From Halichondria panicea (lineage: Eukaryota > Porifera > Demospongiae > Suberitida > Halichondriidae), in NCBI RefSeq assembly GCF_963675165.1, contig NW_026986601.1:1-64000 (forward strand): 64,000 nucleotides of DNA, in the 5' to 3' direction. Shown in pieces: positions 18,515 through 37,354 of the stretch (positions are counted from its first letter, which is position 1; each line of letters starts with the position of its first letter). The translations under genes were made by a program, and so were the position numbers. The notes under the pieces are model-generated. The model was given only the letters and a program-made list of their open reading frames with translations, had not been told where the DNA came from and ran no database searches.

Positions 18515-18864
18515 CTATGTAAACGGTCCGAATTCTACTTCGATTTCCTCAGCTATATCGTTGCGCTCAACAGTAGGACTCCTCAGGCATTCACATATGT
18601 AAGGCCATGTGACCGGATGATCTGAATCAGTGCATTCGAAACGCCTGCCTACCATCTCGGTTAGACAGCGCTTATTATTGTTTTTGTATTGATCCTCAAT
18701 ATCTTTCAAATCTGAATACTTCAGTCCAAAAGCCATTCCCAAATCAAACCAATCTTTGCGAGCAGTCTTCAGTTTCTCACAAATAGTTAGGGTAGTCAAA
18801 ACAATCGGATTGGAGGACGACTGTTTTGTTGAGTTTATGCTTGGATGCTCCTCCTCTGATGATC
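18515..18864 (-). CDS. C-terminal death-domain exon of the large gene
   Basis: The exon begins after TTGATAATAG in phase 1, matching the end of exon 20696-20595, and runs to a stop. A Ser-rich linker precedes a death domain with the family pattern ICEKLKTARKDWFDLGMAFG, then LKDIEDQYKNNNKRCLTEMV and VTWPYICECL. The Trp after the first helix and the TW before the fifth helix are typical. Death domains pair with other death domains to build signalling platforms. Confidence 0.8.
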
Positions 18865-36800: not shown

Positions 36801-37354
36801 GACCAATACAATGTATCGTCTCTACAAAAAACAGTGTGAAGAATGGTAGATGCACTTCCGCTTTGTTCAAATCCAGTTAAACCTGGCAAGATGTTATGTT
36901 TAACACATAGATTATAAAGCAGTTCAATGGCGCTATTGTGCAAGTTGTCCACTGCTAATTCGATCGGGGTTTTTCCTTGATGATTTTTTGTAGATAGGAT
37001 GGTCTTTTCTTCAGAATCGCCCTGAACAAACAAGGCAATCATATTTTGCTTTGCCATACTATTAAGAGCACTGTGAACTGGGAGATCACCATCATCATCT
37101 TTGTCAATTAACTGTTCTTTAGGCATTTCCGAAACAATTTTCTTCATATCTTCAAACTGAGTGAAAGATGAGCATGGTCCACAACTTCTAGCAAGGCCAT
37201 GAGTGGCAGTGCCGTTAAATAGTCTGTCACGCTTATGAAGGAGTTCTCCATACACTTCCTTAGCAGAAAGATTGCCTTTACACATTTTATGTGCATTATC
37301 TTCCAGCCATTTTTTCCAAACTATGGGCTCCTGAATGGGGTTCCATAAAACCAT
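18515..37354 (-). CDS. Predicted 1963-residue ankyrin–Ig–ROC-COR–death–ZU5–death signalling protein
   Basis: Sixteen exons on the minus strand keep one frame: 37354-36407, 36261-36187, 31210-31123, 31031-30762, 30696-30505, 27044-24775, 24694-24650, 24515-24174, 24075-24021, 23796-23603, 22016-21938, 21834-21284, 21230-21081, 21029-20849, 20696-20595 and 18864-18515. They sum to 5892 nt (1964 codons with stop), and all listed borders are GT-AG. Domain order: ankyrin repeats (about 1-300), Ig domain (about 375-460), ROC GTPase and COR (about 535-1100), a Cys-pair zinc motif (about 1230-1260), death domain (about 1320-1410), ZU5 (about 1530-1690), a UPA-like region (about 1700-1815) and death domain (about 1865-1950). 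The core order ankyrin-ROC-COR-death is that of DAPK1 without its kinase; ZU5-death is that of UNC5 and PIDD. A scaffold role in death signalling is inferred. The ankyrin and Ig exons could be a separate gene. Confidence 0.5.
19500..20033. mobile_element. Dispersed ~540-bp repeat (copy 1, minus orientation)
   Basis: It starts AAAGCACCGCAGGTGCTGAT and ends GCGCATGCGCACCGAGGCAT. Near-identical sequence recurs at 20095-20562, 40515-41064 and 55485-56021, and in part at 27127-27215, 29760-30170, 33530-33780 and 34978-35060. Internal landmarks are CTCGAGAACAAAGCATTATT, GGCTGCAAGGCTCTGC-type and TAGCTAGCGTT-type motifs. No frame encodes a recognisable transposase. Confidence 0.7.
20095..20562. mobile_element. 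Dispersed repeat (copy 2), internally expanded by (CA)n
   Basis: The same ends as copy 1 (GCACTGCGGGTGCTGATGCC, and ACCTCACTTGCGCATGTGCA). The short CA-rich stretch present near this end in other copies has expanded here to over 200 bases and replaces much of the body. Confidence 0.65.
20301..20522. repeat. Pure (CA)n microsatellite, about 111 units
   Basis: Uninterrupted CA dinucleotides over about 222 bases, in an intron of the large minus-strand gene. All open frames across it encode only Thr-His or Cys-Val repeats and are artefacts. Confidence 0.98.
20595..22016 (-). CDS. ZU5 and following conserved (UPA-like) exons of the large gene
   Basis: Exons 22016-21938, 21834-21284, 21230-21081, 21029-20849 and 20696-20595 join in phase. 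The long exon is a ZU5 domain: HWVGYGFKLTIPQGSLPAGV, then VSGVFWVRS, LTVEIQHCAKMN, LSFVRARCSQ, LPYTFKQLEG and SYGLLELNNFSGLAV. ZU5 binds partners or folds back on UPA and death domains in UNC5, PIDD and ankyrins. The following exons (LDIPMAGIEVEGGWKIIPM and VKLVGAKSPYNIVTI) occupy the UPA position; the UPA call rests mainly on order. Exon 20696 is a Ser/Pro-rich linker to the last death domain. Confidence 0.8.
22523..22628 (-). CDS. Orphan ZU5-like exon, not joinable in frame
   Basis: After an acceptor (GTGCACAG) the minus strand reads VTLEHLLWKSLTNPKEFSNF then GFKINIPENSLPDYKC. The segment FGFKINIPENSLP parallels the ZU5 start YGFKLTIPQGSLP in the exon at 21834. No donor restores the phase required by the next exon, so it is a decayed second ZU5, an alternative exon, or part of a model I have not resolved. 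Confidence 0.4.
23169..23991. mobile_element. Terminal-inverted-repeat element that contains a coding exon of the large gene
   Basis: The element begins CATAGATAAACGAAAGAGAG and ends TCTTTCGTTTATCTACG, inverted over about 35 bases, and is flanked by direct repeats GTTATAG (23162-23168 and 23992-23998). Its ends resemble those of the element at 48687-49180, which also has a 7-bp duplication (GTTAAAG). Inside it lies exon 23796-23603 (minus), with a CTTTTAG acceptor and a GAG/GTACGC donor, encoding 65 residues around LLMQCDEEVSS and QIEILELCLRALK. Its 194 nt (2 modulo 3) are needed to keep the frame between exons 24075-24021 and 22016-21938. Confidence 0.7.
24021..24515 (-). CDS. First death-domain exon and short linker exon of the large gene
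   Basis: Exon 24515-24174 (phase 0 both ends) gives NPGITSLHKLM and then a death domain: DDFAPVAMHFDSVELYLHPL, LKLTDNEQADVKRE and CLSIWRGHEPSKATFRALIR followed by ILLDLGKEDIVTKICQYL. The tail pattern (CL..W......AT...L...L) is typical. Exon 24075-24021 adds a short acidic linker and ends in phase 1. A 15-codon exon (24694-24650) joins this to the ROC-COR exon. Confidence 0.8.
24775..27044 (-). CDS. ROC-COR GTPase exon of the large gene
   Basis: A single 2270-nt exon encodes a Ras-of-complex GTPase and COR domain, as in LRRK and DAPK proteins. The P-loop is IGPGQIGKST, the switch-II motif is NIVDVGGQPAF, and LVLIMGTYADDL sits where the base-recognition motif should be but lacks the usual NKxD. 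A long Ser/Thr/Glu-rich insert lies between the P-loop and switch II. The COR part includes IPARWLMFSICLKIL, ALRFLHKYIGLVMYF and VICDPQAVFTSISELIF. Near the end CPQSDCKKKM and CESC form a likely zinc site. The upstream Met at 27084 lies in what looks like an intron pyrimidine tract ending TTTTTTGTGTGCAG. The exon ends at AAG/GTAAGA. Confidence 0.85.
27590..28180. repeat. Degenerate minisatellite built on CTCCTATA / TTAATG motifs
   Basis: About ten imperfect units of 50-65 bases combine TAGGGAGGAGCTTAATGACT-like, GAGGGCACTAA and ATCTCTCCTATA-type segments. Units occur in both relative orientations, so local hairpins are possible. It lies in the intron between the Ig-side exons and the ROC-COR exon. 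Confidence 0.6.
28655..29525. repeat. 870-bp fold-back element
   Basis: The left arm begins ATATAGAGTAAGTAACCCAT and the right arm ends ATGGGTTACTTACTCTAT; complementarity runs about 400 bases per arm to a spacer near 29065-29110. Inner landmarks are GCTGATTCAGCAATAATTGT and its inverse. A related copy that has lost most of one arm lies at 54374-54843. There is no coding capacity. Confidence 0.8.
30505..31210 (-). CDS. Ig-domain and flanking exons of the large gene
   Basis: Exon 31210-31123 is a linker (TVAQQIDRGCFSTSLLEYPP). Exon 31031-30762 is an Ig domain: VGEEATFSIVTSSG, FSYNWCLNDQSI, LVVLKPLSKHCGSYKCIVTN and ISSTSARLTVG, with the core Trp and the second Cys of the fold. Exon 30696-30505 is predicted mostly helical (IEVEESKLLHTILTSMQIDK). 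Phases are 0, 1, 1 and 1, and they fit the ROC-COR exon. An Ig fold in a protein without a visible signal peptide suggests an intracellular Ig domain. Confidence 0.65.
31211..36186. other. 5-kb repeat-rich intron of the large gene
   Basis: No exon is recognisable. Contents include a short inverted pair ACCATGGATATC / GATATCCATGGT at about 31660-31750, a lone transposon-like end CCGTTATAAGAGGTTCCACTG (minus one base per side) near 32632-32652, partial copies of the dispersed repeat at 33530-33780 and 34978-35060, the element at 34638-34956, and an AGCTAGCTAGCTAG run at about 35665-35680. Confidence 0.5.
34638..34956. mobile_element. Short inverted-repeat element beginning TAGACGGGCGTCG
   Basis: The ends TAGACGGGCGTCGCCGCC and CGGCGACGCCCGTCTA are inverted repeats, followed inward by TTGACC and GAAGGAGGAC sequence shared between the ends. 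The 9-base flanks GCCAATAAC and GGCAATACT match at only part of their positions, so a target duplication is uncertain. No coding capacity. Confidence 0.65.
36187..37354 (-). CDS. Ankyrin-repeat exons, probable N-terminus of the large gene
   Basis: Exon 37354-36407 (316 codons) starts at Met in MVLWNPIQEPIVWKKWLEDN; an in-frame TGA lies just upstream, which supports this start. It contains degenerate ankyrin repeats, for example DKDDDGDLPVHSALN, NHQGKTPIELAVDNLHNSA, TILHTVFCRDDTLYWSNFL and DSKKRTMLHAARRKHH. It is homologous along its length to the frames at 50692-51603 and 62355-63284. The donor is GAG/GTAAAT. Exon 36261-36187 (TLEVEQHAKSGNLEDTHEAM) follows in phase 0 and ends GCA/GTAAGT. If not joined to the ROC-COR exons, it would be a stand-alone ankyrin gene like its two relatives. 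Confidence 0.75.

Follow-up and report, generated by a model that had tools for sequence, protein, structure and literature searches.

Why should one sponge gene join a ROC-COR unit to a ZU5-UPA-Death tail? The question is raised by 64,000 nucleotides of Halichondria panicea DNA (contig NW_026986601.1, positions 1 to 64,000; hereafter the window), which form a portion of a 143-kb contig. The minus strand of the window carries LOC135351978, whose protein is read as ankyrin repeats (Ank), an immunoglobulin-like (Ig) domain, ROC-COR, a first Death domain (Death1), ZU5, UPA and a second Death domain (Death2). We consider it probable that LOC135351978 is a single gene for a cytosolic multidomain sensor or switch of the Roco type, the tail of which was changed by exon shuffling.

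Gene model and domains of LOC135351978

Our own splice model, used as a query, retrieved the NCBI protein P0001 (LOC135351978 isoform X3, 1946 aa) with 100% coverage and 99% identity. P0001 was rebuilt from 18 coding exons on the minus strand (47415-18515), with 1946 of 1946 residues exact and 17 of 17 introns bounded by GT-AG (Table 1). The cluster behind P0001 holds seven member sequences, all from one contig, which are taken to be isoforms. The exact match upholds the single continuous minus-strand frame with GT-AG borders proposed in an earlier note on this DNA, and the NCBI model bridges the two joins flagged there as weakest, the 5-kb intron after 36187 and the long intron before 27044. 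The limits of the gene had to be redrawn. Isoform X3 consists of 1946 codons in 18 coding exons, instead of 1964 in 16, and the coding span is 28.9 kb rather than 18.8 kb. The start had been placed at 37354, where an ATG and the codons to 37331 are intron read-through; the exon begins at 37330, and the true start codon belongs to the exon 47415-47380. The 42-base exon 22404-22363 is used in isoform X3. A candidate exon of our first splice model, 19464-19432, is absent from it. A long (TG)n tract (window ~20320-20520) lies in the intron preceding the last Death exon.

The proposed module order, Ank-Ig-ROC-COR-Death-ZU5-UPA-Death, was borne out by Pfam for Ank, Ig, COR and Death1, by relatives for ZU5, and by fold for UPA and Death2. 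The domain profiles suggested as a check gave a mixed outcome for P0001: Death1 scored over the Pfam cut-off, Ank_2, I-set and COR-A were matched below it, and ZU5 and UPA were not matched in the scan. Ank_2 reached 27.8 bits, above the cut-off of 27.3, in the tandem-copy protein P0002. The Ig exon lacks a cysteine where the B strand usually carries one, as judged by eye, and the predicted model of this domain has a pLDDT of 62-85 across most of its length. The helical linker exon after it (30505-30696) is conserved at 36-97% identity in all seven relatives with Ig-ROC-COR.

The ROC is of the Roco kind: Pfam Roc was matched in 14 of 32 ROC-COR sequences scanned with an E of at most 0.01 (best 1.2e-5), the window's own sequence being one of the 32 and giving no match at that threshold. 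The P-loop is present in 28/32 and DxGGQP in 32/32, and the window's own ROC-COR carries both. COR-A directly follows ROC in 31 of the 32, including the window, and exceeds the cut-off in P0003 and P0006. Death1 is found after COR in P0003, P0004 and P0005 as well, at 71-79% identity. Pfam ZU5 was matched in six of the seven tail members; the window's own ZU5, ~80% identical to tail members, was not matched. Among divergent ZU5 loci, 14 were fetched and 10 scanned; all 10 matched, eight over the cut-off, and two of the other four carry an internal stop. The order UPA then Death is supported by fold matches to 4d8o, 3g5b and 7crw (pLDDT of these model parts mostly 56-89), and the Pfam Death match of Death2 had an E of only 0.13.

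Table 1. Exons, domains and motifs of LOC135351978, with an exon remnant in one of its introns (window positions)
Feature	Position	Strand	Remarks
First coding exon MASQSSPVLDNQ	47380..47415	-	36 bases; ~10 kb upstream of the start first proposed; second copy at C22:104593
Ankyrin-repeat exon	36407..37330	-	aa 13-320; Ank_2 E 4.5e-5, below cut-off; exact in P0001
Linker exon	36187..36261	-	phase 0-0; exact exon match to P0001
Linker exon	31123..31210	-	phase 0-1; exact exon match to P0001
Ig (I-set-like) exon	30762..31031	-	phase 1-1; I-set E 1.3e-4 (open frame 31074-30649), below cut-off
Helical linker exon	30505..30696	-	phase 1-1; conserved ahead of ROC
ROC-COR exon	24775..27044	-	aa 529-1285; P-loop, DVGGQP, COR-A
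P-loop GPGQIGKS	26961-26938	-	motif in ROC-COR exon
DVGGQP motif	26391-26374	-	in ROC-COR exon
COR-A	about 25788-25564	-	E 2e-7; 31.4 bits, below cut-off 35.3
45-base exon	24650..24694	-	phase 0-0; exact exon match to P0001
Death1	24021..24515 (exons 24515-24174, 24075-24021)	-	Pfam Death 28.9 bits, over cut-off
Linker exon e10, ROC-COR-gene type	22878..22958	-	phase 1-1; matches P0006 linker, E 2e-5
Remnant of second-type ZU5 exon, unused	22531..22630	-	100 bases; frame interrupted; within joint intron
42-base linker exon	22363..22404	-	phase 1-1; in-frame Met at residue 1466
Linker exon e11, ZU5-gene type	21938..22024	-	phase 1-1; matches linker before ZU5 in five genes
ZU5 exon	21284..21834	-	ZU5 via relatives; F1641-S1642 (21421-21416) near ZU5/UPA border
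UPA	20849..21230 (exons 21230-21081, 21029-20849) and end of ZU5 exon	-	by fold
Linker exon e15	20595..20696	-	phase 1-1; exact exon match to P0001
Death2, last coding exon and stop	18515..18864	-	by fold

The tail could also be a self-cleaving ZU5-UPA unit, FIIND- or PIDD-like, in which a cut at F1641-S1642 would free UPA-Death2, the fragment that would signal. Cleavage of the kind seen in PIDD or NLRP1 comes into question because the F-S dyad at the ZU5/UPA border is invariant (7/7 tail sequences). However, the residue ahead of the dyad is N in P0001 compared to H in five of the seven and Q in one, and in a wider alignment the S is replaced by C in two of 11 sequences. Self-cleavage of NLRP1 and CARD8 uses a catalytic His. 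Residues 1593-1640 of P0001 contain no His, and no position for the catalytic His could be assigned. We consider self-cleavage unlikely.

The joint and the tandem copy

The joint between ROC-COR and ZU5 is most likely within 22877-22025, because exon e10 is of the ROC-COR-gene type and e11 of the ZU5-gene type. Exon e11 matched P0009, P0011, P0014, P0018 and P0019 at E 1e-8 to 5e-6 (the E-values for both exons refer to a database of 22 proteins). The intron at the joint also holds the unused ZU5 remnant (22630-22531). Five other places match this remnant at 80-86% DNA identity, and it may have been left behind by an earlier exchange. A 401-base query from this intron gave 13 matches besides itself, five of which were the remnant. 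The other eight were short (36-80 bases, 78-91% identity) and fell on 22792-22665, which points to a small dispersed repeat. A mobile element was also considered as the source of the tail, which these matches did not show. Sorted by place, the nine introns at module borders and linkers are all in phase 1, and the other eight are in phase 0. Phase-1 introns at module borders are the usual mark of exon shuffling.

Another possible explanation is that the gene predictor chained two genes or transcripts. Ank-Ig-ROC-COR-Death would end at ~22.9 kb, and ZU5-UPA-Death would start at the Met in 22404-22363 or further down. The in-frame Met in this exon and the ZU5 remnant in the joint intron would fit such an arrangement, as would the fact that 10 of the 22 other proteins compared have ZU5 but no ROC-COR. 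Nevertheless, the NCBI model joins the Death1 part to the ZU5 tail, with splice phases that are consistent across three consecutive phase-1 linkers. Other sequence precedes ZU5 in the 10 relatives, and none was found between Death1 and ZU5: a search of 17000-24200 with the N-terminal modules of these ZU5 genes (E 0.01) yielded only Death-domain matches to Death2, while the ZU5 positive control was recovered. Two chained genes therefore seem quite improbable to us.

LOC135351978, which we favor as a single gene with an exchanged tail, has a neighbor with a different ending. Copy A (LOC135351980, protein P0002, C22:104593-72951; locus C22:72766-104884, L024-L028) lies beside LOC135351978 (copy B, window 18515-47712). 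In their 5' parts the two copies share blocks that are 90-99% alike and that take in most of the introns, interrupted by gaps and a rearranged stretch. The likeness stops where the ROC-COR exon ends (B 24773, A 76450), so that the copies diverge at the COR/Death1 border, and no collinear match was found past it until the last Death exon. This exon is disrupted in copy A (77% DNA identity to B), and copy A carries another Death exon after the point of divergence. No Death1, ZU5 or UPA was detected in copy A 71001-76460. Since Death1 directly follows COR in P0003, P0004 and P0005, this suggests that copy A lost Death1. LOC135351980 is a recent tandem duplicate with a different C-terminal tail; ZU5-UPA may have been either gained in copy B or lost in copy A.

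The Ig exon is identical between the copies (89 codons), which suggests gene conversion. ROC-COR is constrained, with a dN/dS of 0.36 (745 codons), and the constraint on the ankyrin part is much weaker (0.80, 303 codons). ZU5 is constrained as well (dN/dS 0.29-0.43 against five of the 12 paralog loci tried, seven minus-strand loci being left out). Two further ankyrin exons, ~30% identical to that of LOC135351978, are located on the minus strand at window 50692-51606 and 62325-63287, and the cluster thus extends upstream.

Two expanded families and their mixtures

In the H. panicea genome, ROC-COR loci number at least 55 (E 1e-10) and ZU5/UPA loci at least 59 (E 1e-5). These are lower bounds, obtained from the best 60 ROC-COR and 92 ZU5/UPA matches merged at 5 kb, and one ROC-COR gene on contig C6 is absent from the ROC-COR list. 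A Death search of the genome gave at least 148 matches among the best 150 of 503 candidates. Among the matches listed, the window and a place near C6:3358033 were the only two where ROC-COR is followed by a ZU5 on its own strand at a distance of up to 40 kb; at three other ROC-COR loci, ZU5/UPA occurs upstream.

To describe the partners of each module, P0001 modules were compared by Blast with 22 H. panicea proteins, and Pfam was added. Their choice was based on similarity to P0001 and P0009, and they do not represent a random draw. The ROC-COR core is joined to varied ends: P0005 is caspase-TIR-Ig-ROC-COR-Death with further modules, P0004 is Death array-Ig-ROC-COR-Death, and P0003 has ankyrin and two Ig-ROC-COR cores. 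P0006 and P0008 have an extra N-terminal ROC-COR-like unit of a different subfamily ahead of the Ig-ROC-COR core. The ZU5-UPA tail is otherwise joined to Kelch (P0009, P0011, P0013), ankyrin (P0018, P0019), coiled-coil or Death modules. ZU5 was found in 10/22 relatives, a ROC region in 8/22 and a distant COR-like stretch in four more. None of the 22 has ZU5 together with a ROC- or COR-like part, and P0001 is the sole carrier among the 23 similarity-chosen proteins.

The combination nonetheless appears not to be wholly unique to the window. By our own reading of the frames, C6:3365869-3373839 (L032, L033) has ankyrin-like, ROC-COR and Ig-like frames, then a second-type ZU5 exon, then a Death-like frame; the ZU5 type was tested with Pfam in near copies. 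The ZU5 exon lies 0.9 kb after ROC-COR, between a linker and the Death-like frame, and the intron before it is flanked by matching phase-1 borders. This gene adjoins a similar ROC-COR-Ig gene.

The earlier note had explained the locus differently, as a natural fusion of a DAPK1 homologue with an UNC5 homologue that records a conserved partnership. DAPK1 and UNC5H2 are linked, DAPK1 contains ankyrin, the kinds of module overlap (Ank, ROC-COR and Death; ZU5, UPA and Death), and UNC5b was the second Foldseek match (E 5.8e-4). This fusion is very improbable, since P0001 has no Pfam kinase match that would correspond to the N-terminal Ser/Thr kinase of DAPK, no TSP1 match, no netrin-receptor part and no clear membrane segment (its highest 19-residue hydropathy, 1.67, is within COR), both halves have other partners in expanded families, and the lack of detected Death1, ZU5 and UPA in copy A 71001-76460 implies a young or unstable combination. 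ROC-COR and ZU5-UPA are promiscuous modules and therefore a poor basis for a partner-fusion argument.

Several further observations were made on related and neighboring sequences. DVExNPGP motifs, which we take to be 2A-like ribosome-skipping motifs, are found in P0012, P0015, P0017 and P0021, where they directly follow a hydrophobic stretch at the N-terminus and precede Death-type domains, and they could yield two protein forms with different localization. Another 112 proteins (P0024-P0135), drawn from the best 120 of 265 matches, include many ROC-COR sequences, mostly of 600-900 aa; the 31 that were aligned are 25-84% identical to the window's exon. They may represent individual exons in publicly deposited DNA of other sponges. 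Elsewhere in the window, plus-strand exons at ~9475-14312 contain an Ig domain as well as parts of a tyrosine/serine-threonine kinase and may form a receptor kinase gene, and a further kinase fragment lies at 59835-60155.

A proposed switch and its known counterparts

With LOC135351978 read as a shuffled Roco-type gene, Ig-linker-ROC-COR-Death would be the core of a large family in H. panicea, in which the sensor end (ankyrin) and the output end are swapped through recombination in introns. The output end of LOC135351978 would be a ZU5-UPA-Death cassette from the second expanded family. ROC-COR would act as a GTP-controlled dimerizing switch, in line with the accessible part of PMC6337361. The ankyrin/Ig part may recognize a ligand, which could be a partner or else a signal of microbes or of danger, or may act as a scaffold. 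Exposed Death domains would seed a death-fold assembly and recruit adaptors, caspases or kinases. The ZU5-UPA-Death unit of UNC5b and ankyrin is closed, clamp-like on its Death domain. By analogy, ZU5-UPA may hold Death2 closed, in autoinhibition, until release. The role of the protein may be an immune one. An LPS experiment in H. panicea is reported to have changed GTP-binding, ankyrin and apoptosis genes; LOC135351978 is not among the names given in the accessible part of that paper (PMC8242945).

A number of points weigh against this reading. The join of Death1 to ZU5 rests on the NCBI prediction, intron phases and linker homology. Introns were sorted into border and internal ones by the analyst after their phases had been seen, and the COR/Death1 border is in phase 0, which departs from a rule of phase 1 throughout unless ROC-COR and Death1 together form a single unit. 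AlphaFold yielded no usable model of the ROC-COR or ZU5 of P0001. The ankyrin dN/dS may reflect relaxed rather than diversifying selection. We know of no GTP-binding, ligand or death assay.

A broader idea, which we hold only tentatively and would not yet bet on, is that a third class of combinatorial immune sensors in the cytosol, alongside NLRs and TRADD-N proteins, was built by sponges. These 'Roco receptors' would be ROC-COR proteins with an intracellular Ig, and phase-1 exon shuffling would exchange their sensor and effector ends. A single GTP switch would thereby serve several death outputs: caspase-TIR, Death arrays or, possibly, self-cleaving ZU5-UPA-Death. Roco proteins are studied for LRRK2 and DAPK1. 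H. panicea, with dozens of ROC-COR loci, some of them shuffled to caspase, TIR, Death or ZU5-UPA, offers a test of ROC-COR as an NLR-like death switch. LOC135351978 is one among many module combinations of this sponge, and such module fusions should not be taken as evidence for vertebrate protein partnerships. The larger point, on present sequence comparisons, would be that ROC-COR is shuffled with death-signalling parts in one species.

How does this gene compare to known systems? In the accessible part of PMC6337361, Roco proteins fall into LRR, LRR-kinase and DAPK1 groups. P0001 shares ROC followed by COR with them and, with the DAPK1 group, a Death domain and the lack of LRR. In contrast to these proteins, P0001 has Ig before ROC and ends in ZU5-UPA-Death, with no kinase or LRR found, a topology absent from all three groups as outlined in that part (PMC6337361). 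Its tail resembles the ZU5-UPA units of UNC5, ankyrin, PIDD and NLRP1-CARD8 in ZU5-UPA-Death order and in the fold matches named above, but has a single ZU5 behind ROC-COR, and no receptor, LRR or NACHT part was found in P0001. Exon shuffling of ROCO genes has been proposed to diversify immune receptors in brown algae; there, according to the part of the paper available, the shuffled pieces are single LRR repeats carried by phase-2 exons, whereas the P0001 family would shuffle whole domains between phase-1 introns (PMC11378527). Lineage-specific combinatorial Death-fold proteins are likewise described, in the portions available, as TRADD-N/Death expansions in Amphimedon (PMC8195603) and as NACHT-Zu5 genes in early animals, UPA-Zu5 being joined to other modules in animals (PMC12909245). 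The switch of P0001 is ROC-COR instead of NACHT, and TRADD-N is not among the Pfam matches of P0001 or the window. The accessible part of PMC8195603 names 'Roco' once, in a reference title, and treats the same domain as AP-GTPase. No description of ROC-COR and ZU5 in one protein was found among the open-access papers listed, judged by titles and the starts of abstracts. The architecture of P0001 is a new form of an already known kind.

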